NCBI GenBank assembly: GCA_963855995.1
Contig: OY979717.1
Span: forward strand, 29,180,246-29,244,245
Source of the DNA: Muricea muricata
Lineage: Eukaryota; Cnidaria; Anthozoa; Malacalcyonacea; Plexauridae
Direction of reading: 5' to 3'
DNA length: 64,000 bases
Made by a program: the position numbers and the translations under genes. Below are positions 3,181 through 64,000 of the stretch, piece after piece; position 1 is the stretch's first letter, and each line of letters opens with the position of its first letter. Under the pieces are notes generated by a model, which was given only the letters and a program-made list of their open reading frames with translations, searched no databases and was not told where the DNA came from.

Positions 3181-3383
3181 CAGTGGCGGATCCAGGGTAA
3201 GTCAAAATAAATTATAGCAGCTCAATTTTAAATTCAAAATAACTTTATAACAATGTCATAGGTTATGAATTTCAAAAGAATAAAATCTAACCAATGAAGT
3301 TGCTTTGAAGGTATTTTAAAATGTAAATATATCCTAGAATGAGCTGTGGTAATTTATTTTGACTTACGCTAGATCCGTCACTG
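3181..3383. mobile_element. hAT-type MITE, copy 1
   Basis: A 203-bp element with terminal inverted repeats of about 34 bp begins CAGTGGCGGATCCAGGGTAA and ends with the imperfect reverse complement finishing CCGTCACTG. The CAGTGGCGGATC end is a familiar hAT-type terminus. Flanks read cagaaagg (3173-3180) and cagaaaga (3384-3391), a near-perfect 8-bp duplication as expected for hAT elements. A second copy lies at 28692-28894 inside the Kolobok element. There is no coding capacity, so it would need a transposase supplied in trans. Confidence 0.9.
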
Positions 3384-4627: not shown

Positions 4628-7600
4628 TTATGACGTCAGTGCAGTTGGTCTATATTGTACCTTATGCCTGTAATGCTGTGGCCAGTGCAAATGATATTTT
4701 CCAAACATACCATTGTAATAGTTTATGATAAGGGTCTGAACTTCGTGACTATAAAAAACTGAAGTTGCTTGCCTGCCAAGTGTAATAAGTGCATTTTCTT
4801 TTGTACGTAGGCAGATTAGTTGCATGTCATCAGAACGGATCAGCGATTGAAAATTTGCTACTCGACTTACTATGCTAATCAAATTTTCATCGTCAAGAAA
4901 ACAGATTGTTTTAGTTCGGCCATCGCTATCAAAATCGCAAATCTTTAGAAAAGATCCTGAAAGTTCATAGAAACTGAGCATATCCTCCTCATTATTGCGA
5001 AAGATAACTATCTTAGTTGCATGTGGTGAAAATCTGGCCAATTCTATATATTCTGCATTGTTCAGCGAATGCACAGTTGTGTTATCTCTTATTATGGAAA
5101 GAACACCCTCCTGTAAATTCTTTACTGCGACATCGTGCTTGCTGCTGCAAGCCAAAACTTCTTGATTTTCTGACAACGCAGTAGTTGACATAACCTGCAG
5201 TGTACGGCTGTCAATGAAACTGACTTTTGTTTTTCCGACACAAGCTACTAAAAAATCTGAAACAGATTCGCAACATTTGATTGCCTCATCTAGTTTACGC
5301 CTCAACGGTTTCTTGCCATCTATCGTCATTAGAACTTTCGACATCTCTACATTCCACATTTCTATATTTTCCTCTACGGTTACAAGGAAAATACCATTTT
5401 TCAAAACGGCGAATGCAAGAACATTCTCATGGTCATTTGATATCAACGAAGTCAAATCGGAAGTATTTCGTTTTGAAAGTTTGCGTGACGACTGAAAGTG
5501 TTGATAAAAAAATTTACCGTCAAATGAAATATTTCCAGGTACAATATTTGTACTCTGCAATTCCAGATTATTTGAATATAAAATTACTTCTAATTTTTCA
5601 TGCACAATTTTGCACCCCCAATCGATGTTAGAGGCATTTATACTAAGCAACCTTAAAAGATCTAAATACACCGATTGTGGCATGATTTGCGAGGTAATTG
5701 TAGCCTCCAAACTTTGGCGCCGTTTTGTACTAGCTGGGAAAATGAATTGTACATTAGGTGAAAAAAATGTTAAACCTAATCCGTTAATGTCGAATGAACA
5801 CAAACTACCTGCAATTGAAACAAACCAAGAATCTGATTTGTAACCTTTTAACGATACAAAATTACTATGCTCAGATAGTTCATTTAGATATCCTTCAAGC
5901 ACAATTCTCTTATTAAATTTATAATTTTTTTGAACGTCAAACACTGTGACAGCTGCTAACTGTGACGGCTGTTGACATGTGTCAGCGACAACTGCAAGAT
6001 AATTTCCACTGGTGGAAAAACTAAGAGAAAGGGCAGATTCTTTTAATTCAATACGATCAATGCACGAACTACTTTCCAAGTTCCAAACATGCAAATAAGT
6101 GGCACCACTACATCCTGTAATCATAATCGTTTTGTTTGGAGAGAAACAACAGCAGGTAAAGAAAAGTGGTGAAGAAAAATTTGTCTTAAAAGAGAATGGG
6201 CCTGGCTGCAATGACCCATCAGCCAAAACTAGAACCTGATCAAGTCTACCCGGCAATATTTTGTCGTGAATAGGATGAAACGCAATGCAGCTACACGAAA
6301 TTTCTTCCCTTGCAAAGGGCTTGGTCCATATTACCTCCAGGGGTTCTAGTGTAATTAACTTTACAACACCTGATTCAAAGCACAATACAACATAATTGAG
6401 CTTGGTATGAACGTCAGCGGAACGCACTACCTCTTTCCCCTTGGACAACATCAATCTCCGACATTTCTCATGTAAATTGTCTTCAAATATTTCAAACCTA
6501 GGAATTTTAGGGTAGAAACGCGATAATAATTTCAATGCTTCAGAACTTACCTCTCCAATTTCATACGTCATTAGTTGATGCAAAAAATCATAACAGGCAT
6601 AGGTCTCAAATTTATCAGCGCTTACTGAATCCATAATAACAATTACTTCTTGTAATGCATCTGCAACTTTATTTTCAGGTTGCATTCTTAACATATCTGC
6701 AATTTTTTTGGCAAATAAATGTTGAGAGCCTTGCGAAGAAACACAACGACAAATAATTTCTAAATTCTTTAAGTAGTCATTTAAGTACGAGTTAACATCA
6801 TACTCAATCATATGGAAAAACCCATTCCGCAGAGCGTACCTACTAACGTCGGTCAGCTTAGACGGGTCAAGGTCAGTGCTACCTTTCAACAGATGATCAA
6901 AGCAGTTGGCACATTGTTTCGCTAAAACATCGTGCCCACGTTTCTCAACAATTTGGAAGTGATGATATTCCCCATTAACCACCCAGTCCTTGACGGATTT
7001 ATGGAAGAAACTGACGTGACTGTCAATAATAGTGAAAAGTAAGGAAATACAATTCCTTACCTTCGCTACATTTCTTCTCTGACTAGCTGTTTCTCTTTTA
7101 ACACCTAAAATACCAACAACAAAATCGAGGGGTAGCGGCTCCTTGGCAGCTACCATTGCACTCAACAAAGACAAAAATGCATCTTCACTAATGTTTAAAA
7201 CTGTTGTACACTCTTTCTCAAGTCTTTCGAAATAATTTTTAAACAAATCGTTCAGATCAGTAGGAAAATTTTCATGATTTCCCTCTTTCTTATAACAATC
7301 AAAAATGTAGAATGCATAGAGCATAAGACCATCAGATCTTGACGTCAACTCCGTAATAAGGCTTTGACTCGATGCTATTTCAAGAGATGATAGCTTGGTT
7401 TCAAAAAAAATCTTCAAATCGTTTTTGTTGTTTTCGTCATCTTTTTTTAGATACAAAGGATTTAAACGTTGGAATTTGTCAACGATATTTTTTTGCGGTC
7501 TTGTAGTGATAAGAAATCGAAAAAAATCAGGCAGTTTATGTAAATGAGTAGCTATCAAATCAACCAATTCACTACGTTCCTCCCAATCACAACTTTCATC

Positions 7601-8962
7601 AACACCATCTATCACAAACAGAATGTTTTTGCCGCGATCCTTAACATAAGCAAGAGGTTCTTTTAAAAGTATCGTAAACAAACTCTCAATGTTCAATTCA
7701 TTGAGATTTTTACCCCCCAAGTTGCGCGATAATTGATTGCAAAGAGCTTTCTTGTAATCAGGTAACACATTGCTAATTTGAAAAGCTAATGACTGGAGAA
7801 GGATTTTAGGATTATTGTAACGATCGTTCTTATAACTAATGAAATGACATCCGGCAAGCTGTTCATGTAATCGTTTGCAAACAACTGCAGCAATCACTGA
7901 CTTTCCCATCCCGGCTTCACCAGTAATTATAAATGCACGATTGTCAGACTCATCATCATTGAACCATTGATTAACTTGATTAAGTACCCATTCACGAGTA
8001 CCCTGAACAAATCTGTCACACAATATCTTTATTTCTGCAGTAAAATCACAGCAAGCAATTTTTCTTAAAACTTTATCAGATTTATTGGACTCTGCACCCG
8101 ACGCGAGTTGAGGGCGAGATCCATCCTGTTCTACTTGGCTGTCTTCACTAAACTTACATCTCTTCTGTTCTTCATCAGTATTTGTTAAGGGACGCTTGCT
8201 TCCTTTTTGACCTACGTGTAACTTCTCACCTGATTGATGAGTGTTCTTGTGATCTTCACTCGCATCATCTCCACGTTTGTCTAAAATGTTCTTTATTACA
8301 TGCACCTCTTTCTGTAACTCTTCAACCTTTTCTCTCGTCTCACTACTAATTTCCAAATTTTTTTTCATCATTGTTTCAAACCTTTCTATATCACTGACAA
8401 TTAATTTCCACTCATTCACTACTCGTTCTACAACCTCCTTTAGACATTCCTCAGCCTTCATTTGGTCAATTTCTTCCTGACCTACTCCAAAACTGACTAA
8501 GATACGACTTATTTTATTCCAGTAGTGTTCAAAATCTTTCGTAGTGATTCCGGTTTCAGTTATATGAGCATGTAAGTCATTGCGAAACAACCTAATCCGA
8601 ACAATGTTTGCCTCACGTGAATTATCACTAGCATTTGGCTCCTTATCCCAACCCGTAGAAGGAGCAATAAGGCCACATATATTCCTCAGAAGGACAGACA
8701 ACAAGGTTATATCGAAATTACTAATATCTGGGATATTTGGTGGCGTCGGATAGAGTTTATCCCATTGAGTTTGGTTTATTATCTTCTTACCTTTAAGATG
8801 AACAAGGGTGGATGTATTTGCGGCTAATACTGTCTGTATGGTTTTACCTGTGTGGCATTGCTGAAAGACGATTCTCATTGCTTCAGTTCCACCGTCTATA
8901 AGCAACCTTACCAGTTTAAACCAATTGCTTTTTTCGGGTGACCAATCAAGAACAGAGGCCAT
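4628..8962 (-). CDS. DZIP3-type HEPN / NACHT ATPase / beta-propeller protein (NLR-like innate immune receptor)
   Basis: One uninterrupted 1444-codon frame. The start is well placed: GACCATGG gives a strong Kozak context and an upstream in-frame ATG is absent. Residues about 1-190 resemble the DZIP3-like HEPN domain common in cnidarian and mollusc proteins, including LFRNDLHAH with the HEPN R-x5-H pair at R127 and H133. A predicted coiled coil follows (about 165-235), then a charged linker. The NACHT core has Walker A GEAGMGKS (348-355), Walker B FVIDGVDES (449-457) and a sensor-like ITTRPQ (485-490). After a helical middle, residues about 890-1430 contain degenerate WD40-like blades (SPNKTIMITG, HVWNLE, SFSTSGNYLAVV). 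By family knowledge such proteins are cytosolic STAND ATPases that oligomerise on sensing. The ligand and effector action are not visible. A nuclease role for HEPN is inference. Lack of introns is unusual for an animal gene this long and may point to a retrogene or expansion family. Confidence 0.93.
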   Translation of the reverse strand: MASVLDWSPEKSNWFKLVRLLIDGGTEAMRIVFQQCHTGKTIQTVLAANTSTLVHLKGKKIINQTQWDKLYPTPPNIPDISNFDITLLSVLLRNICGLIAPSTGWDKEPNASDNSREANIVRIRLFRNDLHAHITETGITTKDFEHYWNKISRILVSFGVGQEEIDQMKAEECLKEVVERVVNEWKLIVSDIERFETMMKKNLEISSETREKVEELQKEVHVIKNILDKRGDDASEDHKNTHQSGEKLHVGQKGSKRPLTNTDEEQKRCKFSEDSQVEQDGSRPQLASGAESNKSDKVLRKIACCDFTAEIKILCDRFVQGTREWVLNQVNQWFNDDESDNRAFIITGEAGMGKSVIAAVVCKRLHEQLAGCHFISYKNDRYNNPKILLQSLAFQISNVLPDYKKALCNQLSRNLGGKNLNELNIESLFTILLKEPLAYVKDRGKNILFVIDGVDESCDWEERSELVDLIATHLHKLPDFFRFLITTRPQKNIVDKFQRLNPLYLKKDDENNKNDLKIFFETKLSSLEIASSQSLITELTSRSDGLMLYAFYIFDCYKKEGNHENFPTDLNDLFKNYFERLEKECTTVLNISEDAFLSLLSAMVAAKEPLPLDFVVGILGVKRETASQRRNVAKVRNCISLLFTIIDSHVSFFHKSVKDWVVNGEYHHFQIVEKRGHDVLAKQCANCFDHLLKGSTDLDPSKLTDVSRYALRNGFFHMIEYDVNSYLNDYLKNLEIICRCVSSQGSQHLFAKKIADMLRMQPENKVADALQEVIVIMDSVSADKFETYACYDFLHQLMTYEIGEVSSEALKLLSRFYPKIPRFEIFEDNLHEKCRRLMLSKGKEVVRSADVHTKLNYVVLCFESGVVKLITLEPLEVIWTKPFAREEISCSCIAFHPIHDKILPGRLDQVLVLADGSLQPGPFSFKTNFSSPLFFTCCCFSPNKTIMITGCSGATYLHVWNLESSSCIDRIELKESALSLSFSTSGNYLAVVADTCQQPSQLAAVTVFDVQKNYKFNKRIVLEGYLNELSEHSNFVSLKGYKSDSWFVSIAGSLCSFDINGLGLTFFSPNVQFIFPASTKRRQSLEATITSQIMPQSVYLDLLRLLSINASNIDWGCKIVHEKLEVILYSNNLELQSTNIVPGNISFDGKFFYQHFQSSRKLSKRNTSDLTSLISNDHENVLAFAVLKNGIFLVTVEENIEMWNVEMSKVLMTIDGKKPLRRKLDEAIKCCESVSDFLVACVGKTKVSFIDSRTLQVMSTTALSENQEVLACSSKHDVAVKNLQEGVLSIIRDNTTVHSLNNAEYIELARFSPHATKIVIFRNNEEDMLSFYELSGSFLKICDFDSDGRTKTICFLDDENLISIVSRVANFQSLIRSDDMQLICLRTKENALITLGRQATSVFYSHEVQTLIINYYNGMFGKYHLHWPQHYRHKVQYRPTALTS

Positions 8963-11197: not shown

Positions 11198-11270
11198 TTC
11201 GCGGTTGCGCAGTGGTAGGGCGCTTGTCTAGAAAACAAGAGGTCGCAGGTTCGAGCCCCGCTAGAGAATC
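11198..11270 (+). tRNA. tRNA-like sequence (SINE head or tRNA pseudogene)
   Basis: The sequence has a D-arm-like GCGCAGTGGTAGGGCGC, an anticodon-arm-like CTTGTCTAGAAAACAAG with loop CTAGAAA, and a B-box GGTTCGAGCCC followed by CCGC. If read as a tRNA the anticodon would be AGA. However, a serine tRNA should have a long variable arm, and the acceptor ends (GTTCGCG and AGAGAATC) do not pair. It is therefore more likely a tRNA-derived SINE head or a decayed tRNA than a working gene. Confidence 0.45.
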
Positions 11271-23282: not shown

Positions 23283-24059
23283 TCTCGATAACCAATATTC
23301 CTTCCGTTTTAAATCGATTCGCTAGATTTAAGTTTGATAGTAAAGTGTAGATATACATGTGATGGTGGATATTTGTATAAATCTGACGAGTAGACAAGCT
23401 AAAGTATGGTGTGTGAAGTCAGACCAAAATTGACTCTCGCTTCAGCTCGAGTGATGTTACATTAAAATAATGGTAGTGATCGCTTTTATTTATTCGTTCT
23501 ATACAAGAAAACAATATCTGACATAATTGTTTAAAGCGCATGTGTCCAAGTGTTTACTTTCAGTGTCTGTACAGAAATCGATTTATGGACAGAGTCGTAG
23601 TCGTAAAACACAAATATCAATAAGTGTCTGATGAACCCCCTCCCCCCTCCCACAAATTCAGAAGGATAAAGCTTAAATTGGAAATAGCTGAAAATCGGAA
23701 AAGTTTCTGTCTTGTGAAGAGTTTGGCTTTGATTTAAGCTTATTCAATGCGACTTATCATGCATAACTAAATTTCCTGATCAGTGCTGATATTAATTAAC
23801 AAAAATGCGAAACATTTTGCTCGCAATCATCATATATTGTTTAAAAAGAAATGAAAGCTAAATGACGTAACTTACTTCATGTAGCTAGGTATATTTTGAG
23901 TGAATACGCGATATATAGACACACAGACACAGTAGTTTGTAGTGTAAAGGACAAAGCATCAAATTGTAAAGTGAAATAATACGTAGACACACTGCAGTTA
24001 AAGAACGAAGCATCAGACTGTAAGGTCATAGGATGGTTATGCACACCGCAGTTTGTAGT
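23283..24059. repeat. LTR-family internal region, unit 1 (left part)
   Basis: Aligns by eye with 34022-34790, 36963-37690 and 55550-57110. Shared landmarks are GATGGTGGATATTTG, GCTTTTATTTATTC, a C-rich tract near 23636 and TTATCATGCATAACTAA. It is interrupted at TTAA (24060) by the Kolobok element and resumes at 31214. No LTR-like copy is seen to its left, so the series is truncated there. Confidence 0.8.
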
Positions 24060-27000
24060 TTAAAGGACATTGGCAACAAAAAATTTTATTCCTTATATCT
24101 ATTATACTTACCTATGGGTTACTTAATTACGCATTTTCGTGAGTCTATCGCATGTAGTTGTTGAGAAAATTTGGAGAAATGTTGATCGTACGGCAGCCAT
24201 TTTGAAAATAAAGCGTTTGCTAATTTATGCAGAATAACTTTGCTGACGTCATTAGTAGGGTAGGCCGAATTTTGCAATATAAATTATTATTACTATCACG
24301 TTTCAATAGGAACATTTTGCCAAAAAGTAAAAGTTGCTGAGCAAAATACAATTAAGTAATTGTGCAATACCCAAGTATTACTGTTCGCCAAATATGTTTT
24401 TAACATTATTTTGAATAAACGCATCTATCACAACTGTTATATACGCCGAGATGTCAGATCCCATGCTGGACGTCTGCCAATGTGCAAACACACACACACT
24501 CTCAGTCATACATTTCACTGACTTCAAATCAAACGACATATCATTTGGCATATTAATATACCAAGAAATGTATACCTTGTACATTATAACATATCAGTAA
24601 AAAACAAGACTTGATATAATAGAAACATCGCTTGGAACATCGAACACGACTCGCAGGCACAATATGCCAATATAAATTATATGCGACACTGTTACATATA
24701 CTGGGACTACCAGCACTTATACTTTGAACCCAAATTGTTGAATTAAAAAAAGACTGCCGAAAGGGTGTCGAATGGAAAAACATGTGAGGGCTTTCAACTG
24801 ACCTAGACGGCTAGTCGCCAAGTTTGAAATTCATTTAGCCATTTAATGATGTCGGCAAGGAAAATAAAGATACATTAGCACATAATGCGCATTACTAGTG
24901 CAATAGTGGGAGTTCAAAGGAAGCAATTGAAATCTTGTCTGGGCTTTTACCGACACTTGCCACCCACACATTTTTGCGACACTTTCTGACTTTATCTTCA
25001 TTCATCCGGATACACCTTGGTATTTTCTGTGAGGTCTAGCAATTTAAAATCGCAATTATTATCGTGTTACTGTATAGGCGCTGACAAGTTCTAAATAAGG
25101 ATGATTTGTTTGCGAAGGAGTTATATGTCCCGTTGCAAATTTTGCTGCTTCACTTGCATGCAAGGCCAAGGCGCAACATGTACTGTCCGGTAAACGGTTG
25201 CAATAGTGACAGCCAAAAAAATCCGAGTGGAATACGTTTCTTTTCGTTTCCAAGCGGGAAATCCGTAGCCCAACAACAGAGAAGAAAGGTATGGGTTGAA
25301 TTTTGCAAACGCAAAAAGTTTAATCCTTCGTCGTGCAGTAGAATCTGCTCACGGCATTTCACAAAAGACGCGTACGAAAAAGGGCATTCGCCACAGTTCC
25401 TCGAACAAATCGAGTGCAAGGAAGCGTTTCGTGTACGGTTAAGAAGTGATGCCTTGCCCACATTGAACAAACCCTTGGTAGAGGGAAGCTCAAGCAAACT
25501 AAGAACTTCTACGGCAAGGAGACAGCGAGAAAAGGTGAGTCGAGTGCTCGATCGATAAATTTATTTTATAATTTTTAAGACCTGATGAGAAACGGTTGCA
25601 AAAGGTCCCCTAATGTATGTATATTTTCTCACTTGGATTGCCTACTGTACTTAAATAAATATTGTACATCAAAACTCTTTAAATGTATTTTATATGTATT
25701 ATGTTATACAACACGGCGTATAAGAATGTTTTCCACACTTTCATTTCCATATTGTTGGCCAAAAATGTTATTGTAAATATATTTTACCTACAATTATAGG
25801 AACTTGATGACATTCTGAATCCAAGAGAATCGCAACTGGAGGAGAAAGAAGAACCCGAAAGTGTCCCCGATTCGCCAACTGAGCAAAGTAACGAACAAGA
25901 CCCAATGCCGAGTGCGTCAGAAACATTCGAGGTGAGAATACCATCGAACACTCGAAGTAGATCGACGCAAACAGTTCGTAGACGGGAGACAAGATCGGTG
26001 AGAACGCAGACTATCATGGCAGCAACTTCGACGTCTTACCCGACAAAACCCATTGTGGAATGTCCATCTTTTCCAGAAGCGGATGCAGTCGCCGAAGTAA
26101 CAGCCGTGGTTACAGACGTGGACAACGTTCAGTCTCACGGAGAGCCTAGCAGTGCATCAAATAAAAACGTGGACGATTTTTCAGCACAAATGGCTACAAC
26201 AACAGAGGTCGACGTGGAAAGCATTGTAAGCAGCGTGAGTGATGAATCGGCGGCATCACAGGGCCACAATCCAGACGACGTCGATGTATTATCGTCTACT
26301 GAAAGCGACGAAAGCAGCGCGGAAGACTCTGACTATGACAAGCGAACAGTATTAGTAACAGGGAAACCCCCACAAGATCAGGTCAAACTAATTGTATTCG
26401 AAGAAGCGATTTTAGATGTTTTCGGTCAATGCGTACAGTGTGGCTCAAAATGCATAATTACGACGGAAAACCAAATTGGCTCGTGTTGCAAAATTTGCAT
26501 CTCGTGTTCAGCCGATAGTGCACATTATTTTGAGTGGACAACTGGTCCATGCGTGTCTAGAATGCCAGCATTCCATCTCTTGTTAGCGTCTGGTATTCTC
26601 GCAACAGGAATGGAATCGTCGAAGGTTCTTCGTCTCTTCCAAGCTTTAAAGATTCCAAACCTGAAGCAACGCGAGCTGTCGGACATCCTAAAACTTTACA
26701 CCATTGCCGCAGTTTACCACGTTTGGAAAGCGGAGCAGTCTGCAAGATTGGGCGAGGCCGAAGGGGAACCGACTGTAATTGCATCGGATATGCGTGTGGA
26801 CAGTCCTGGACATAGCGGTCTGTTTGGGTCGGGCAGCACTTAGACATGAAAAGGAACGTCATATTAGACACGCAAGTAATTAAGGTAAAGATTTTAATAG
26901 TCATGATAATACAGTGATTACTGTATTTATCACAAAAAAGGGGAAAATTCAACTCTTTTAGATGTCCCACTAGCTCTGACATTTTCATCAGGGACCAGGG

Positions 27001-28691
27001 TTTACGTTTTTGACTTTTTATATACAGGTCCCCTCGTCTTGGGACTACAAGTTCTTGAACCGAAATATAAGAAATATATTTTTATTTCATTAATGTTTTA
27101 ACAGTCAACAGAAGTGAAAAACTCGAGCTCCAATGCCATGGAGCTCGAGTCCTTGAAGAGACAACTAAAATGCTTGGAGGGCAACAACGTCGAGGTAGTA
27201 TTATCATGATTAGCCAATTAGTCTTTTCATATCACGATGTTGTTTTCACACAGTTTATGTTCTTTTTATGGCGATATATTATTATTATTACTGTAATAAT
27301 TATTACTATTAAACTAAATAGGGCTCCCATTGATAACAGTAATTTTTATTACTGACGGGGCTACCCTAATGAAATAAAGGTTTCATATCATATCTTAAAT
27401 ACTTTATAATTATTAGGTAACAAAGTTGGTGACTGATCGACACATTCAAGTCTCTTCATACATGGCACATGAGAAGCCACAAATTGAGCATGCTTATGAT
27501 GTATGGCATGTAGCAAAAGGTATGTAGCTTGTCATTATTATTAAAGAGATGGGATATCACGTTCACTGCAGAGTACAGACATATATACAATACATAATTG
27601 TAAACTATTTTTTGCAATATTTCATTCGTCATTTTAAAGGTGAAAAGAAAAGATTAATAAAGGTTGCAAAGACGAAAAAATTTATGAAAATTAAGCCATG
27701 GATTGGAGTGAGTAGCACACTTATACTGAAAAGGAAAATATTTGAATAGATGCACATTTTTATGAAGTAAACCAGTGTGCATTGATTGATATATATAAAT
27801 ATATAAATATATATCTTTAATTATGATATTTATATCAAATTTATTTTCATATACTTGACAGTCAATCACTAATCATATTTACTGGGTTTGGTGATTCAAG
27901 CGAAAGTGAAGATGAAAGGGAAGAAAAGTGGCTCAGTATTTTAAATCATATTGTCAACATACACAAACATCCTGACAATAAGATTTTCGCTGAATGTCTC
28001 CATGGCACACTTGAACGAGAATGGCTTAAGCAAGGTTGAGTAAAATTTAATGAACAAGAGGATTTAAGACAAATTTTAAATTATAATAGTTCACCAAATT
28101 TAGCCTGATAATAGCGTTGGACCTGTCCTAAAGCAATCTGGCTACTTGGCTAACACTTGGTTGTGACATGTCCTAAGGCACTGACTGGCTATGCTAACCC
28201 AAGTCAGAATTTATATACAATAGTTTTAAGCCCTGACCAGGAACAGTTGCGAAAAATGCAACACTAGGTCCTCAATGGTAAACACTTACAGTAGTACCAA
28301 ACATTTATCACTTTTTCTTGTATATTACAGGATCAGCTGTTCATAAAAAGTTAGTTGAGATGTTGACGAGACCACGTCTGATCTCGGCAATACGAAAGTT
28401 ATCCAAATATCACCAGACATCTGGTTTAGAGGCCAAATGCTTTGGATAACTTGCTTGCTTCAAAGAACACCTACCATTCATATCATTCATTGAGTGCAAG
28501 GTGAGCTTTTGTTCGGGTGGCAGTGTACAATAGCAATTGATGATATAAGAGCCTTAAATATCAACTTTGTGCCCACTGAGAAAATGACAGTATATAATTG
28601 TTTAAACATTGACATTGTTGATATAGATTGTACTGTTCAAACTTGCGCTACAAAATGAAAATAGCAACCGAAAACAAGCAAAGACCGCTGA

Positions 28692-28894
28692 CAGTGGCGG
28701 ATCCAGGGTAAGTCAAAATAAATTATATCAGCTCAATTTTAAATTCAAAATAACTTTACAACAATCTCATAGGTTATGAATTTCAAAAGCATAAAATCTA
28801 TCCAATGAAGTTGTTTTGAAGGTATTTTATAATGTAAATATATCCGACATTGAGCTGTGGTAATTTATTTTGACTTACGCTAGATCCGCCAATG
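28692..28894. mobile_element. hAT-type MITE, copy 2, inside transposase exon 8
   Basis: A 203-bp relative of the element at 3181-3383 with the same CAGTGGCGGATCCAGGGTAA terminus. It has a perfect 8-bp duplication ACCGCTGA (28684-28691 and 28895-28902). It splits the coding run ENSNRKQAKTA from the continuation EGKLRWA in the Kolobok transposase. Confidence 0.95.
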
Positions 28895-28914
28895 ACCGCT
28901 GAAGGAAAGCTACG

Positions 28915-29332
28915 ATGGGCAATGGACCTTTCCCCTTTTACATGAAATTTTGAAAAAATCGAAATAGGCAAAAATATCACCATAGCTTGAAAGAGCATCC
29001 CAAGTTTACTAAAGTTGCAAAGTTTGGTTGTGAAATGTAGTAAACTGTAGAAAATATAGCCTTGCGAAGTTGGCAAATTTTGTATACATTTGTATTACGC
29101 GTAGGAAAATGATAATCAAAAGTATTAACTGATTATCACTTTTCCGCCCGTAATACAAATATATACAAAATTTGCCAACTTCGCAAGGCTATATTTTCTA
29201 CATTTTACAACATTTCACCGCCAAACTTTGCAATCTTACTAAACTTAGGATGCTCTTTCAAGCTGTGGTGATATTTTTGCCTATTATAAATTTTCTCAAA
29301 ATTTCATGTAAAAGGGGAAAGGTCCACTGCAT
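28915..29332. mobile_element. Foldback element, about 0.42 kb, inside transposase exon 8
   Basis: Almost the whole element is one palindrome with arms of about 200 bp meeting near 29115-29130. The left end reads CAATGGACCTTTCCCCTTTT and the right end AAAAGGGGAAAGGTCCACTG. It interrupts the transposase exon between EGKLRWA and YPKAFKGEK. Paired open frames on the two strands (28798-29076 minus, 29172-29354 plus) are mirror images of the arms and not genes. Confidence 0.88.
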
Positions 29333-30303
29333 ATCCAAAGGCCTTCAAAGGTGAAAAGGTAGTTGCAAAACCATTGAAGGAAAATCCTACATATTGTAAT
29401 AATTTTACACCCCCCCCCCAAAAAAAAAAAACAAGCCAAGACAATATAATTGTATAATGAAAATGCTTAAATTGTTAAAATTCTACCAAAATTCCTTTCC
29501 CCTATACAAAGTTAATCTTTCAAATATTCTACAGGATATGTACAGTTGATTCTAAATGAAGTCATGAAATTAAGGAGTCAGTGCCAAAGCTTGAAGAAGG
29601 CCAAAGACCATGCACATGATATGCTACCTACTGAGCCACAGTCTCTTGTTGCAAAGTACTTGACAGGAAAGGAACGCCCTTCACAGGAACAGGTAGTGGC
29701 CAGCAGAAGGTCGCGTTTCAGTAAACCAGCCTTACCTACTAGTGAAAAAGGAAGGTCACAAAATAAGCCCTGTGCTTGTAAGGGAAACACGAAAGTGCAA
29801 CTGTAGGGCAGTGTAAGTGTTGTGTGACAGCAAATGTAACTGTACATCAGCAAAGTGTGTAAACCGTGAATGAGATATTTGTGCACTTTCATACTCAATG
29901 TAAATACTAGCATTACTATTACTATTAGCTTAACCCATTGATGTGCAATAATTTGCTCTTCTTTAGTATCTACTGCGTCAGACAATTTTACTGGTCAAAC
30001 AAGGGAAAATGGGTTAAAAATGTGGTATTCATTAGAGTTATGTAGAAAATATTATTGTGTTTCCCCATTTTGAGGTATTACTGTAAAGGCGAAAAGGCTT
30101 TATTTTTATCATATTATTTGGTGTATCATTCTGGGGTTCCCACCATCGCACTCAACTATTCACTATTTTAAAAGTTTCTTTAAATTGCCCTAGTCCAAAA
30201 GAAATGTATATTAAATGGGGAAACACGTCGCCTTTGCCCACAAGATTTGGACTTTTGGAAATAATATAAATAATTTAAATATATATAAAAGTAACATAAA
30301 AGA

Positions 30304-30914
30304 TTACAGTTTTGATGTTTTGGCATATTTAAAATGCGTGTATAGGCCATCAGGTGACGCAAAGCGTTCTCGTATCCTTGAATAAACACATGCAGGAAAT
30401 GGTCTTCGCCTTTTCTTGCCCAAAATCTGGAAAATCCACCGTGAACATCGTTGATATGCCACTAAACGATACAGCTTGTGTATTTTCTCTAGATCCCCAT
30501 CATCTAAAGGCCAATTTTCTTCGAGATAGCGGCAAACATCTATCTTCAGTACCCCTTCCGACAACATGTTGTTTCGAAAATCCGGATGTATTGTCAAACA
30601 TTTTTCGCCAAGTGCTTCTGTTTGATCAAGAAGCACTCCGTATTCGTCGTACTCCACCGCTTTTTCGTGGCAACAAAAACACTCAATAGCCTTTGTTGAC
30701 AACGCACAATGACCACATTTGCACCAGCTTAGGTTTTCAAGCGCCAAGCGTTTGCCCTTTCGAGCTCGTTATCGACTTCCTCCTCAGACGAAGACAACAC
30801 ACTGCTTCGTTCCGAATCGCTTTCATCGCTAAGATTTGAGGTTCCCGCGCCAGCTACTGGATCAAATTGGTAAGGTAACACTTCTCCTACTTGATTTTCG
30901 TGGATATTTTCCAT
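30304..30914 (-). pseudogene. P2X7 C-terminal 'ballast'-domain protein encoded in the Kolobok-type element (one frameshift)
   Basis: The minus strand starts best at MENIHENQVGEVLPYQF (30914). An acidic, serine-rich stretch follows (SDESDSERSSVLSSSEEE), then after a 1-base frame change near 30740 the conserved domain. This carries WCKCGHC, ECFCC, CLTIHPDFRNNMLSEGVL, RLVAYQRCSRWIFQILG and PACVYSRIRERF, with a Y...FK end. The order and spacing match the cysteine-rich cytoplasmic C-terminus (ballast) of vertebrate P2X7 receptors, where these cysteines coordinate zinc. No P2X channel part is present: no transmembrane segments and no extracellular domain. It is a free-standing ballast protein of about 200 residues. 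It is transcribed toward the transposase gene from the other end of the element. Role in the element is unknown; a nucleic-acid or nucleotide-binding helper is speculation. Confidence 0.85.
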
Positions 30915-31213
30915 TACAATAAAAAAACGACACAATTTCTTATAAAATCTCACAAACCTCTATAAACCTGTGTAGAAAATTATATTGTTGTTTTGACGCT
31001 GCCCTACTAATGACGTCACATCGGGTCATGTGACCCAAAGATAATTTTTTGAGAACTATTTCCAAAATGGCGGACAAAAATCAAAATTTAGGTGCATTAA
31101 TATGCCAATAACTTTTGAGCAAAAGAGTTTGGCAAGAAATTAAGATTATATTTATTCTTAGATGAGTATGTACTTTTAAATTACGCGATAAAAATTTTCG
31201 TTGCCAATGTCCT

Positions 31214-31934
31214 TTAAATCAAGAACCTTCATCAGATTGTAAAGTGTAAGCATGTGTAGACACCGGTAGTTTGTAGTTTAGGGAACGAAACATAAGATTA
31301 TAAAGTCAAACGATCCTGAAACGATGCACAGACACAAAGCAGTTAAGTTTGCAATGTAAATAACTGAGCGTAAGACTATAAATTCGGAGCATATACCTTG
31401 ACACACAATATTTTGCAGTTTAAAGAAGGAAACATCAGATCGCAAATTCAAAGGATGCGTAGACACACAGTAGCTACTTTGTAGTTTATAGAACGCAGTG
31501 TCTGAGTGTCAGACTGTAGAGTGAAATAATACGTACGTAAGCACACAGTAACTTAGCTACAGTAAAAGTTTTTTGTTCAATGTAAAGCATCAGATAGTAA
31601 TTTGTAAAATCAATGAATACGTAGTTTGATGGTATTGAAAGGAAATCAGATTCATATGCGTCATATAATTATTTCAAAGTGTAACTGCATTTGAGTGTGG
31701 GGCTGTTTGATTTAGTGGTCTAACATTTATTTCGTGCCGTGTTCTCAAGTTCCAAACCACTGCGTATCCCCGTATCCACTCAAAAAGTCAAGTTTTCATC
31801 AGAGATGTGGTTGTGGTAGCTGGTAAAATACTATGTCACCTTGTCAAGTTCATGTCAACAACCGTTTTCACATAGCCTTATATTCCTGGCTGCCTTGGAT
31901 CAAATTACAAATTGTAGCTGAGCAAGAAGTGAAC
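31214..31934. repeat. LTR-family internal region, unit 1 (right part)
   Basis: Resumes after the Kolobok element and matches 34790-35313 and 37690-38245. It is rich in the phrase ATCAGATTGTAAAGTC with GTAGTTTGTAGTTTA between, giving a loose internal periodicity. It ends in a purine-rich run GAGCAAGAAGTGAA directly before the LTR-like repeat, as expected of a polypurine tract. Confidence 0.75.
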
Positions 31935-40405: not shown

Positions 40406-41688
<1,283 letters not shown>

Positions 41689-41699
41689 TATTCAACTGT

Positions 41700-42252
41700 C
41701 AGCAAATATTTAACTTTGGTCAGCTTTTTGCACTATAATATTTTGTATTTTTGCAAAAAGTTTTGGGAACTTTAACAACAATTTATTGTTGTAAAAATTA
41801 GATAAAAAGCATTTATCAGGTCACCAAATATGGAGTCAAGCAAGCAGCGAAAGGAAAACGAGGAAGCAGAACGTTTAGCAAGGCGAAACGAGCGTAGATG
41901 ATGACAAAGGCTCGCGGAGACTGCCGAAGAAGATTGAAGAGAGATTAATTCGGGGAACATACAGAGAAGCGCCAACAATTGACTATGGCGTGAAACACAA
42001 GGCAAGTTTGTTGATAATGCGTATTTATACTTGTGTTTTAATGCTTTATAAAGGCCAGCGTAGCCGTACTCATCCAGCGGTCTATTCACTGTTTAAATTC
42101 CAGAGTAAGTTTATGTTTTGTAAATGCAAGACTGTCTTCTTATTATTAATGTAATTAATAGGTCGTATTTTATACCAAATTTAAGCTTACATTCGGCGTA
42201 ATAACATACCGATGACAAATGTTGTGCCATTTAAAAAAATTGTCAATAAAAC
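41700..42252. other. Non-coding stretch between MITE and long-TIR element
   Basis: A short plus-strand frame at 41829 (MESSKQRKENEEAERLARRN) is rich in Arg/Glu and ends after 23 codons. A minus-strand frame at 41772-42089 overlaps it and shows no domain. No gene can be supported. Confidence 0.35.
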
Positions 42253-52713: not shown

Positions 52714-53815
52714 TCAAAAACTAAATTTGAAGGCAGCGGCCGAGGAAGAAAGATTTTTACAAAATGAGTCATACGATACCAAACTTCCAATATCTTTCGG
52801 TATCCTATTCCATAATTTAACCTCACTATAACTGAGACTTTTTTTAACAAATTCTGGCTTGGGCCTTGGAATAAAGAGCCCAGTTGAAGAACCTCTTAGA
52901 CAATAGTTATTCACATTGTCAGAAAGTTGAAAGATGTCACACAGTCTTAGTGGAGCTAACTGATTTACTGTTTTGTACATTAGCCTGGCTTTCGCTACTG
53001 CTCTACGTTCTTTAAGAGATGTCTAACCGAGAGATGTACGAGCTAAGATAGACTGTTCATGTTCATACTGAAAATTCATAATTAACTTAGCCGCTCGATT
53101 CTGTAATTTTTTGAGACCTTCAATGAGACCTTTATCAAGCTCAATAATCAAAATGCAGCTGTATCAATGCATTTTATGCCAGCACTAAAGTATTCCGGTC
53201 TACTAATTCTTTAAGCCTTTTTATCGCACCGATCCCAGATGATACTTTACTAACAATATGATCAACATGTTTTTCCCATTTCAGGTGCTCCTCAATTTCA
53301 ACTCGTAACAATTTAGAGCATTTTACTCTTTTGATGGGACATGTGTCGATCTTAACTGTAGGTTGGACATCAATGCTACTTATCTTAGGACTTGACCAAA
53401 TAAGTATATATTCTGTTCTCGCAATATTTAAACTAAGTTTGTTTGAAGACAACCAAGCTTTAACATTATTCAAGTCTTTATTCGCTATCTCTTCTGCTAT
53501 GTTCAATGTTTTGCCAACAGCTCTAAGGCTGGCATCATCCACGAACATTCTTGGTGTTGTATGTTCGAGACAACTTGGCAAATCATATATATAGATAATA
53601 AACAGAAGAGGGCCAAGTATACTTCCCTTAGGAATACCGCAAGTTATTCCTGTCTGATGTGAAAGCATTTCGTTTAGTTGACATCGCTGTGTTCGATCTG
53701 TTAAGCAGTTACGAAGTAACGCCACGGCTTTTTTACCAAAGCCATATCCTTCAAACTTACGTAAAAGTATTTCATGATTAACAGTATCGAATGCTTTCTT
53801 CAAACAGCTATGTTG
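52714..53815 (-). pseudogene. LINE reverse transcriptase fragment (CR1/L2-like), truncated at the LTR boundary
   Basis: The minus frame 53803-53174 contains FDTVNHEILLRKFEGYGFG, GITCGIPKGSILGPLLFIIY and the catalytic MFVDDASL (FVDD near 53535-53546). A later LSSNKLSLNIARTEYILI follows, the usual order of a non-LTR reverse transcriptase palm and thumb. After a stop at about 53174 and further breaks, the C-terminal part resumes at 52980-52714 (TVNQLAPLRL, SYSEVKLWNRIPKDI). The N-terminal fingers and endonuclease are missing because the sequence joins LTR copy 4 at about 53850. It is a different copy from the fragments at 49230 and 55655. Confidence 0.88.
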
Positions 53816-58960: not shown

Positions 58961-61900
58961 ATGAAAACGAACTATTGGTCCTACACAAAGAGGCTCGGCA
59001 ATCTCAAAACTCTGAAAACTATTGTGGACGAAGCTGATCAATATCGAAGGGAAGAAGAGACGGCGAAGATTGTGGCAAAGGAAGACCTCGCACAAATTGG
59101 TGAATGGAATGCGGGAATTGAAGAAAACTTAGCCAAGGCGGAACAGGAAATGAAACGTTTAAAGACATGGAAGGATGAGTATAGCTGGAGGTTGGGCGAG
59201 AAAAAACGGAACCAAGAGTTGGAGTTCGAACAAAAACTTTTCGAGACACGTCTTAAGTTTCAAACAGAGTTACAGCAGGCAAAAGCAACGCAAGAAGCTA
59301 AACTAAGCAAAAGCAGTAATGAGACCGCGGTTAAAGCCGAGAAAAATGCTCAAGCGAAACTCCCAAAATTGGTGATCACTAAATTCAATGGGACCTACCA
59401 GGACTGGCCAAGATTCTGGGAGCAATTTAAGGAGACCGTTGATAAAACATCAGTCGAACCAGTCATAAAGCTGACGTACAGGGAATTATTAGAAACCAAA
59501 GCTCGGAAGACCATCGAAGCACTACCATTTACCAGTGAGGGGTATAACAGAGCCAAAAGTGTCTTGGAAGAAAGATTTGGAAAAGAGTCCGAGATAATCA
59601 AAGCGTACACGAAGCAGATATTTGATCTTCCCACAATTCCTGATCTGAATGTTAACAAGATTCATGACTTTACCGACAAACTTACTTATGCAGTTCAGTC
59701 GTTAGAAACTCTAGGAAAGCTATCACAAGTCAATGGAAATGTATCAATGACACTAGACAAGTTACCCGCCATTCGAGGTGATTTAGTGCGCACTGATGAT
59801 TCATGGGAATCTTGGGATTTTGTTAAACTTACCGAAGCATTGAGATGGTGGACACGGCGAAATCCAATTGAAAGGCGCTCATCAGGCAAGCTACTTAATG
59901 CTCGCGTAGAAGATTTTAAAGTTAAAGATTGCGTTTACTGTGACGGGAAAACACACAAGTCACCCGAATGTACGAAAGTTGTAACACTTGCTGAAAGACG
60001 GGAGATATTGAAGAAAAAGCGACTCTGTTACAACTGCACTAGTCCCGCACATCGAGCTAGCGAATGTCAAAGTAGATCCAAGTGTAAGCATTGCGATCGA
60101 CGACACCATACCTCTATCTGCGACCGGAAAGAGGCAGATAGTAAAGAGAAAGGGAAAACTTTGTTGATTTCTACCGAACAAAATACGGAAGGGATTTTTC
60201 CAGGTGTTCAGATAAAAGTGGACGGTGTTGAGTGCAGAGCATTAATCGACTCGGGAGCAGGCAGCTCCTATGCCTCGGCAAAACTTATTAATCTTCTTAA
60301 GAAAAGACCAGTTGATGTCACCAAGAAGAGAGTTGACATGGGGTCACACGTGGCACATCTTGAGACATATCAAGCATCCCTGGGTTCGGTGAGTGGTGAC
60401 TTCAATATGGATGTGAATCTGGTGAAAGTTAACAAAGAGGAACTGTTGTCTATTGATAATCCGAGATACGATGAATTGATCAAGAAGTATCCTCATCTGC
60501 GGGGTGTAGAAGTTGTGGACCACGATCCAAAACCAAAGTTACCTATTCATGTCGTGCTCAGCGCGGGGGAGTATGCTCGAGTGAAAACAACCACCAAACC
60601 ACGAATTGGCCAAGATGGAGAACCGATTGCGGAACTGACGAAATTAGGATGGTTCGTGATGTCACCTGGAGCAGAATTTGACCATAACCGAATGTTGCTC
60701 ACCCAAACTTCCCAGACCGACTACGAGCAGTTATGGCGACTGGATGTCTTGGGACTGAAGGACACTTCTGAGAATGATCAAGGTGACGTGTACACGGAAT
60801 TCAAGGAACAACTGAAACGTGATGAACATGGATGGTATGAATCAGGATTACCATGGAGAGCAAACCACCCTCCATTGCCCAACAACGAAAAGAGAAGCTT
60901 GCGTCGTCTGGACAGCTTAGTGCGGAAGCTTGAACGGACAGATAAATATGAATCTTATGACCAAATCCTGCGGAGCCAACTCAACGAAGGCATCATTGAA
61001 CCAGCACCGAAGATACCTCAAGGCAAGGAGTTCTATTTACCTCATAAATGTGTTGAAAGGGCAAATGCTGAGTCTACCAAGCTTAGAGTTGTGTATGATG
61101 CTTCAGCTAGAGCGCAATCGAACAGTCCATCGCTCAACGATTGTTTAAATACTGGCCCCCCTCTTCAAAATCAACTTTGGAGTGTCCTCGTACGGCAAAG
61201 ATCCTACCCGGTATCAGTGTGCGGCGATATAGAGAAAGCATTCCTACAAGTTCGTGTAAAGATCTGCGAGAGCGATGCCCTCAGATTTCATTGGAAGCAT
61301 CCTGGTGATGAGTTAATCCAAATTTACAGATTTACACGTGCTCTCTTTGGTCTTACTTGTTCGCCTTTCCTTCTTGGTGGAGTGATTGATCAACATTTAG
61401 AACTGTGGCAGAAACGAGAACCCGAGATCGTAGCTGAGCTAAGGAAGAATCTGTACGTAGATGATCTGTTGTCTGGTGGTACCACTGTAGCTGAAGCGCA
61501 AGAGAAGAAAAGGAAAATGACGGACGTTCTCAGTGATGCGACATTCAAGTTGCACAAGTGGAATGCAAGTGAGAAAGAGCTCGAAGGAGACGGTGATGTT
61601 GTTGGGGATGAGAAAGCCGAAAGTCAAACCTTTGCGAAGCAGCAACTAAACGTTGATTCGAAGTTGTTAGGCTTAGCATGGGATAAGATATCGGACACGT
61701 TAACCGTCACTTTCCCACAAGAGTCTGTGTCAACAACGAAGCGAGGTATCCTAAGCAAATTAGCAAGAATATATGACCCCCTCGGACTGGTTTCGCCAAT
61801 CACTGTGGCAGGAAAGATGATCTACCGGGAGGTGTGTGATGCAAAGTGGTCATGGGACACCCAGATTGCAGGCGAAATGGCTGATCACTGGAAGGTTTGG

Positions 61901-64000
61901 GAGGGTTCGTTGCCATCTGGAGAAACAGTACAAAGATCGTTGTTGCAATATCATGAGAAAGCAACGACCATTAGTTTACACGCATTTGGAGGTGCAAGCT
62001 ACAAGGGTGTTTGTGCTGCTGTCTATGCTGTGATAGAGCAGCCATCGGGGACCACTCAGACTCTCGTTGCGGCTAAGGCTCGGTTAGCAAAGCAAGGACT
62101 AACTATTCCAAGATTAGAACTGATCGGAGCTCACATGGCGGCAAATTTGATTACCAACGTACATGAAGCAGTAGAGAATGATTTGGGGATACCTCTTCAC
62201 TGTTGGCTAGACAGCACGGTAGTCCTGTATTGGCTTCAAGGTAACGGCACCTTCAAGCAGTTCGTAGCAAATCGTGTGAATAGGATAAATGGTCATAAAG
62301 ATATCGAGTGGCACTATGTACCTACGAAGGATAACCCCGCTGATCTTGGGAGCCGTGGGACTAAGCAGCTTAGTGAATTGTGGAGAAATGGTCCTGAGTG
62401 GCATCACAAGAAAACTGGCCGGCAAGCCCAGTTATCAAGTCAACTATCGAAAGTCAAGCAGAAGAGAAGATGGAACGGGAGATTGTCGCCTGCACCGTCC
62501 AACCCGAAGAGAAGAAAGATTTGTTTGATGTTTTGATCGAAGTAAATATCACTAATGTCTGGAGAGTGTTGAGAGAGTGTGCCTGGGTTCAGAGGTTCAT
62601 ATCCAACCTGAAGCTGACAAAAGTAAGTCCAAACCTCGGACCGTTAACTACAAAAGAGTTGGAAGAACAGCAGGAATGGTGGATCAAGAGAGTTCAACAA
62701 AACCCCGGGAATGTCGACAGCTTTCAGACAGATCGAGTTCGGCTCAATTTGCAAGAAAATGAACAAGGAATGTCGAGGACGGATCGTTGGCCAGTACCCA
62801 ATTTACTTACCTGATGGAGCACCCTTCACCCATGCACTAGTCCACGAAGCCCATCTTCACACGCTACACGGGGGAGTGGTTCTTACTATGGCGAGAGTGC
62901 GAGTAACGTTCTGGGTCCCGAGACTACGGAAATTGGTTAAAGAAGTTCGAAAACGCTGTTGGGGATGTAAGCGATTTCAAGTCAGTGCATACGCTGCACC
63001 ACCGCCTGGTCAGTTACCGGTAAGCAGAACACGGGGAGAACGACCTTACGAAGTGGTGGGAGTCGACTTCGCTGGACCGATCAAGTTTATCATCAAGGGA
63101 AAAACAGAGGGGAAAAGTTATCTTTGTCTGTTTGCTTGTAGCCTAACGCGTGATGTTTACCTCGAACTGTTACACACGTTAGAGATGGAAGAGCTCCTGA
63201 GTTGTCTTAAGAAATTCGTAGCGAGACGAGGTCGACCTAGACTAATATATTCGGATAACGGAAGTACCTTCAAAGGAGCGGCGTCATGGATGAAGAAGGT
63301 GATGAATGACGAGAAGCTGCACGATTATCTTGCTAAGAATAAAATTGAATGGAAGTTCAACTTGTCGCGAGCACCATGGTGGGGCGGACAATTTGAGAGA
63401 TTAGTGGGTATATTCAAGGGAACATTCTACAAAGCAATTGGAAATGGAATGTTGTCTTTTAGCGAATTGGCTGAAATCGTCACGGACGTAGAAGTCGCAA
63501 TTAACAACCGACCATTGGACTACGTTGAAGAAGATGTCCAACTTCCATTGCTGACACCTAACTCGTTGCTGTTTCTTCAGCCAAACTATCTACCCGAATT
63601 GGAATCCCATCATCTCGAAGAGCCAAACCTGCGACGACGAGGGAGACACTTATCTAGAGTAAAGGATGCCATGTGGGCACGGTGGAGAAAAGAATACATA
63701 AAGAGCCTACGAGAACGGCATCGGTTGCAGGGAGTGAGAGGAGTCCGAGCACCGGCAGTGGATGAAATTGTCATAATAAAGAGCGAGGAGAAGAATCGCA
63801 ACCGGTGGAAACTTGGTAAAGTTGTTGAACTGATTCGTGGCCGTGATGGAGTGGTAAGAGGAGCGAGGGTCCAAACGGAAAAGGGAGTACTGGAAAGAAC
63901 ACCGCAGCATTTGTATCCACTGGAGCTGAAGTGCGATCGGTCGGAGAAGAGAAGTTTGAATGTTGAAGCCCTGGAATTTCAACCCAAGCGTCAAGCAAGT
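58961..64000 (+). pseudogene. BEL/Pao LTR retrotransposon gag-pol, two frameshifts, open at window end
   Basis: Frame one (58961-62536) holds an N-terminal coiled coil and a DUF1759-type gag domain from about residue 133 (LPKLVITKFNG). Next are two zinc knuckles starting at C356, a retroviral-type aspartic protease (LIDSGAGSS, catalytic D430) and reverse transcriptase with YVDD at 832-835. The A17-type linker and an RNase H-like domain (LDSTVVLYWLQGN, D1084) follow. The reading then shifts near 62398 to a second frame (to about 62767) and back to the first. It continues through the HHCC zinc motif (62840-62990) and integrase core with D at 63065, D at 63254 and E at 63395. A C-terminal DUF5641-like segment stays open at 64000. 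Domain order protease-RT-RNase H-integrase is that of BEL/Pao elements. The two shifts leave the frame-one product ending before integrase. The first ~14 codons are shared with the non-coding repeats at 33391, 36547 and 55136. Confidence 0.93.

Follow-up and report, generated by a model that had tools for sequence, protein, structure and literature searches.

A two-gene Kolobok-type element in the window

The window, the whole 64-kb stretch of DNA analysed here, contains a Kolobok-type element of 7,150 bp at 24064-31213, whose borders between TTAA duplications were read in the window. It carries a THAP transposase gene on the plus strand and, on the minus strand, a gene (KolX) encoding a protein that resembles the cytoplasmic ballast of P2X7. 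The features of the element are as follows (strand in brackets where it applies).

24060..24063, left target-site duplication TTAA, read from the sequence; TTAA on both sides in 15/17 deleted relatives
24064..24089 (+), left terminal inverted repeat, starting AGGACATTGGCAAC; inverted-repeat search, end alignment and terminus count
24244..24263 (+), subterminal inverted block of 20 nt; partner at 30999-31018, 95% complementary
25178..25534 (+), transposase exon 1 with THAP DNA-binding domain; PF05485, tblastn, donor GTGAGT
25801..26884 (+), transposase exon 2, SDMRVDSPGHS being the putative first catalytic D motif, with a frame break near 26831-26840; tblastn
27102..28036 (+), more transposase exons with introns between; putative second D in VTDRH and C/DxxH signature DVWH, both in 27417-27524; tblastn
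28330..28489 (+), transposase exon with GLEAK (putative last catalytic E) and a frame break near 28437; tblastn
28692..28894, nested 203-bp element with inverted ends, interrupting the transposase; relative L015 lacks it
28924..29327, second nested insert, a palindromic fold-back that interrupts the transposase; not present in L015
29323..29394 (+), penultimate transposase coding piece; tblastn
29537..29803 (+), last transposase exon; tblastn
30304..30914 (-), KolX (P2X7-ballast) gene with one frameshift; ballast domain frame 30304-30741, acidic N-terminal part frame 30732-30914
31188..31213 (-), right terminal inverted repeat; inverted-repeat search, end alignment and terminus count
31214..31217, right target-site duplication TTAA, read from the sequence

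Internal to the TTAA duplications the termini are AGGACATTGGCAAC and GTTGCCAATGTCCT, and the terminal inverted repeats are 26 nt long with 24/26 positions matching; taken as 31 nt (24059-24089 and 31188-31218), the inverted ends are 94% complementary. Exact copies of the 14-nt terminus are found in the window at the two ends of the element and nowhere else; allowing up to two mismatches gives three matches against 0.49 expected. Local alignment of the element ends gave a score of 42, compared with a best of 36 among 500 single-base shuffles. By complementarity, terminus count and shuffles, the TTAA-flanked inverted ends described in the first-pass annotation are present as claimed. The termini read AG...CT, as in the 5'-RR...YY-3' rule of the Kolobok superfamily, and the TTAA of this superfamily was found at the window element, at 15 of 17 deleted relatives and at two other loci, L034 and L035. 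Imperfect repeats of about 44-74 bp lie on both flanks of the element (23927-24069 and 31216-31624). Since a repeat copy outside the element holds a GTAAAGGACA stretch resembling the element's first bases, the element lies within a repeat similar to its own terminus.

The plus-strand ORF at 25106-25558 matches the THAP domain PF05485 in a Pfam scan (E 3.7e-16, above cutoff). Downstream, SDMRVDSPGHS, VTDRH, DVWH and GLEAK align to relatives in a DDD/E arrangement with the C/DxxH signature between the second D and the E, and they are probably the catalytic motifs of the transposase. Together with the duplications and termini, this DDD/E transposase with its DVWH signature bears out the Kolobok-type identity given in the first-pass annotation. 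Relative L015 lacks both nested inserts and shows both empty sites. The transposase and KolX are both broken in the window copy and, because of these frame breaks and the two nested inserts in the transposase, this copy is very likely dead. The 203-bp inverted-ended element has a second copy at 3181-3383 that is 94% identical to 28692-28894; its insertion into the Kolobok element seems to have produced a target duplication of about 8-9 bp.

The KolX gene starts 300 bp from the right end of the element, with its ATG ending at 30914, and lies tail to tail with the transposase. Its frame at 30304-30747 matches PF20478 (P2RX7_C) with E 1.8e-12 and 48 bits (cutoff 23.5), all seven zinc cysteines are present in it, and each of the six KolX sequences scanned scores above the Pfam cutoff. 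What had been annotated as one minus-strand ORF at 30304-30914 is indeed a gene with ballast motifs, in two frames that one frameshift near 30732-30741 separates; in intact relatives, about 203 aa long, the frame continues through this site. The further description, of a ballast motif series without any channel, inside the element borders and convergent to the THAP transposase, agrees with the domain match, the cysteines and the opposite strands of the two genes. No P2X channel domain was found by Pfam in the six KolX proteins scanned or in the Pfam column of 120 listed relatives, and the scans of the six proteins returned no domain with a recognised catalytic function. The protein relatives with E <= 1e-3 number 204, the candidates having been filtered by length, which left out the 595-aa P2X7. 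The closest among the matches listed are 98% identical over the ballast domain, and the organisms named in the 120 listed of the 204 (Dendronephthya, Xenia, Paramuricea) are all Octocorallia. A search of viral contigs and genome contigs for KolX gave no confirmed relative.

Elsewhere in the window, judging by eye, an uninterrupted frame encoding 1,444 aa and containing the P-loop GEAGMGKS looks NACHT-like (4628-8962, minus strand), a 1,191-aa open frame resembles part of a BEL/Pao-type retroelement polyprotein (58961-62536, plus strand), and a 209-aa fragment looks like a reverse transcriptase (53174-53803, minus strand). A long simple repeat at 40628-41738 can be read as open frames in either direction (PACL / GRQA repeats), and a tRNA-Ser (aga) is predicted at 11198-11270 on the plus strand.

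Recurrence of the gene pair, deleted relatives and selection

The genome that contains the window (453 Mb, 74 contigs) was searched with the transposase core alone (534 bases), leaving the ballast gene unused in the query; all candidates were scored, giving 13 matches. At nine of these, which match the query at 70-100% identity, KolX lies downstream on the opposite strand, 2.7-11.7 kb away (12-kb limit). Random placement, in 2,000 trials that took in 96 KolX places on contigs C1 and C2, averaged 0.05 and never exceeded 2/13. The remaining four have no KolX at the expected place among the matches listed. Three of them are partial, covering 251 (C1:72240070), 437 (C1:17494487) and 141 (C1:17014964) of the 534 bases; the fourth (C1:86197989) is nearly full, and its nearest listed KolX is upstream on the same strand. 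Since 150 of the 978 KolX candidates were scored, and matches were listed in part, absence of KolX at these four cores cannot be concluded. Twelve of the 13 core matches are on contig C1, which holds 124 of the 453 Mb, unlike the KolX matches, which are found across many contigs.

L034 is also a complete element (6,645 bp, with TTAA on both sides and identical 16-nt ends), in which THAP, transposase and an open KolX are arranged as in the window, with a stop in one matched transposase stretch that spans a probable intron. L015 and L033 are parts of a single long copy, separated by another insert that we compute at about 7.3 kb; the matched transposase exons and KolX of this copy are free of stops (left end outside the sequence examined). 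In L032, from an 84% family, both genes have the window layout and frame breaks (left end likewise outside the sequence examined). The proposal had been that the ballast travels with a DNA transposon family as its second gene, to be checked by asking whether it recurs in the same place and orientation in other TTAA-flanked copies; the nine of 13 paired cores and L034 answer this in the affirmative. Neither of the outcomes named as contrary to it, full-length copies lacking the ballast gene or a gene with its own insertion borders, was seen, with 4/13 cores having no ballast gene at the expected place in a listing that was incomplete.

We also compared 21 close loci (L009-L028 and L031) that were chosen from KolX DNA matches and in which KolX is therefore present by construction. 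Seventeen of the 21 are about 3.5-4.2 kb long and have lost the catalytic core while keeping the THAP exon and KolX, a modest addition to the published picture. The deletion junction falls between element positions 1713 (1637 in L022) and 5320, and 15 of the 17 have TTAA on both sides. KolX is open in 13/16 deleted copies and the THAP exon in 12/16; both are open in L031. Fifteen of the 16 copies compared are 97.6-99.7% identical and L023 is at 95.5-97.5%. Two more deleted types, L029/L030 (2.9-3.0 kb) and L035 (2,667 bp), are TTAA-flanked with KolX broken and 22 residues or nothing left of the THAP domain. Because these types spread with a broken KolX, KolX is probably not needed in cis for spread, with the caveat that the breaks in their KolX could postdate a common origin. 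Dozens of KolX matches of the L035 type (e.g. C16:3946112-3946690), at about 45-51% identity, have similar sets of stop codons; from the one copy examined, this type is apparently an amplified deleted family with a dead KolX.

Within the recent burst of 16 deleted copies no selection was detectable on KolX, where 8/33 singleton and 5/13 shared changes are synonymous (expected fraction 0.241, p 0.33). The same holds for the THAP exon, with 4/27 singleton and 1/10 shared changes synonymous. The right non-coding block was unusable in this comparison because the right end of L023 had been set by hand past the real end. These counts do not support continued selection on KolX in the deleted family. 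Between families, KolX is under purifying selection. L009 and L029 differ with dN 0.090 and dS 0.487 (ω 0.19 over 195 codons, skipping codons with gaps or stops, as the L029 frame is broken), and L009 and L030 likewise give ω 0.19. In pairs involving L027 or L028, two decayed single copies, the ratio is 0.26-0.55 (0.41 and 0.55 among them, and 0.50 for L027 with L028). Among 11 open KolX ORFs, 7/55 pairs are unsaturated, with ω 0.07-0.33 and a median of 0.12 in a set whose selection for openness lowers ω; three young pairs give 0.18-0.33, and for the four more distant pairs dS exceeds 1.8 and the ratios are rough. This is the usual transposon pattern, in which masters are conserved and copies decay freely after insertion.

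Likeness of KolX to the P2X7 ballast

An AlphaFold2 model built from 51 relatives was of mediocre quality (mean pLDDT 61, pTM 0.57). When it was searched against the PDB with Foldseek, ranks 1-14 were all P2X7 (best E 3.8e-4, probability 1.00, TM-score to the model 0.44-0.46), and with ranks 15-20 at a probability of 0.02 or less the confident matches are P2X7 alone. A profile search found four sequences at E <= 1, all P2X7, the best at E 2.7e-6. This profile search and the PF20478 match give the result expected of the profile check against P2X7 tails that the first-pass annotation had proposed. In the PDB, the single window sequence matched mouse P2X7 weakly, at E 0.11, and the next two matches (E 0.55 and 1.1) were unrelated proteins. 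KolX and P2X7 align in cysteine spacing and in a C-terminal IRxxF...GxY..FK stretch. Zinc cysteines, C-terminal core and fold are thus common to KolX and the P2X7 ballast (PF20478; PMC7016195), whereas the P2X7 receptor has a channel domain in the same protein and KolX has none.

All seven zinc cysteines are present in 40/51 relatives. For the guanine-nucleotide contacts we took the rat GDP-binding positions described in PMC7016195 and transferred them through one pairwise alignment. Equivalents of R546 and R578 are kept in 48/51 and 50/51 KolX relatives; at the positions of H547, R574 and K583 most relatives have L (45/51), Y (50/51) and S (50/51), respectively. With two of the five kept, the P2X7 contact set is not conserved in KolX. 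As the cysteines are conserved and the GDP contacts are not, the comparison suggests that zinc binding is the older property. KolX has 58 conserved residues (six gap columns dropped), eight of which are N-terminal to the P2X7 segment and not comparable, and in one alignment 25 of the 50 comparable residues are identical in mouse P2X7. Polar residues conserved in KolX and absent from mouse P2X7 in this alignment are E96, E100, N128, D138, N146 and H158, and likewise K159, R168, R171, R182 and R183 (P0001 numbering). A speculative and rather unlikely extension is that P2X7 kept the zinc scaffold of KolX, lost these polar residues and gained guanine-nucleotide contacts, so that its tail would be a disarmed transposon protein, with KolX a distinct trans-acting and possibly enzymatic accessory factor of Kolobok transposition.

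Origin and role of KolX

The main part of the idea of a transposon-borne ballast is right and already published. Kojima & Bao 2022 (PMC9587614) describe the Kol0 lineage of Kolobok as encoding a second protein, KolX, which shares the fold of the P2X7 ballast and has seven conserved cysteines; they place ballast-like proteins of diverse animals in Kolobok families and explain P2X7 as a fusion between a P2X4-like gene and KolX. Rump 2020 (PMC7016195) describes the fusion and the ballast as a zinc-coordinating domain, in a text that does not mention transposons, THAP, mobile or retro elements; in the open literature searched, KolX and the ballast-transposon link were found solely in Kojima & Bao 2022, and one further paper (PMC9319628) names both Kolobok and P2X7. 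The protein described here is, like the KolX of Kol0, the second protein of a TTAA-inserting Kolobok, and the Kol0 feature of encoding KolX with a ballast fold was found by Pfam, cysteines, fold search and pairing, so that by gene content (KolX) alone the element would be Kol0-type. The published range of Kol0 includes cnidarians, and here we describe one octocoral-type family from a broken copy. The strand layout of KolX, the deleted derivatives that keep it, the selection estimates and the state of the GDP contacts are given here and were not found in the parts of PMC9587614 available to us. The KolobokP, KolobokD, KolobokE and KolobokH lineages also carry an accessory gene, which in KolobokP is downstream on the complementary strand, as KolX is here; these accessories are nucleases or a RecQ helicase (PMC9587614), whereas no domain of recognised catalytic function was found in KolX by the Pfam scans.

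From a joint reading of the anatomy, the recurrence, the fold match, the purifying selection between families and the conserved cysteines, we consider it very probable that this is a decayed two-gene Kol0-type Kolobok in an octocoral-like genome. The THAP domain would guide the transposase to the element ends, and the transposase would cut and paste at TTAA. Because deleted families with a broken KolX spread, yet KolX is conserved in the long term, it may act as a trans-acting accessory factor in transposition. A role in DNA processing or complex assembly is plausible, since the accessory gene of other Kolobok lineages encodes a nuclease or helicase (PMC9587614). Vertebrate P2X7 would have taken its ballast from a KolX-like gene, as was proposed in the same paper.

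A host (nanor-like) ballast gene might instead have been captured by chance in a single element, as cargo from outside the family. The neutral-looking evolution of KolX within the burst and the four of 13 cores without a listed ballast gene at the expected place fit such cargo; however, the convergent pair recurs at nine of 13 cores of 70-100% identity and in the complete L034, and it is published for the Kol0 lineage across animals (PMC9587614), which makes chance capture very improbable. Convergence of small zinc domains without common descent would account for the weakness of the single-sequence match (mouse P2X7 at E 0.11, followed by two unrelated proteins at E 0.55 and 1.1). Against it, all four profile matches at E <= 1 are P2X7 (best E 2.7e-6), six of six KolX sequences pass the Pfam cutoff, the confident fold matches are P2X7 alone, and the cysteine spacing and IRxxF...GxY..FK align, so that we hold convergence to be extremely improbable.

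KP-type repressor elements are the model for another reading, in which the deleted 3.6-kb elements with THAP and KolX are repressors, a stand-alone THAP protein of about 126 aa binding the ends and regulating autonomous copies while KolX helps in trans. The same kind of deletion in 17/21 close loci, the open THAP exon (12/16) and KolX (13/16), and the unspliced THAP exon of L009, which gives a 126-aa protein, are in its favour. However, no selection was detected on either ORF within the burst, copies at 97.6-99.7% identity (L023 95.5-97.5%) could simply have inherited their open frames, and in L029/L030 and L035 KolX is broken and the THAP domain is reduced to 22 residues or gone. We therefore regard the repressor function as improbable.

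One chromosome-scale genome supports the published idea that the ballast of P2X7, an inflammation receptor, is a domesticated transposon protein. Since KolX has been under long-term selection, its biochemistry could explain what the ballast does.
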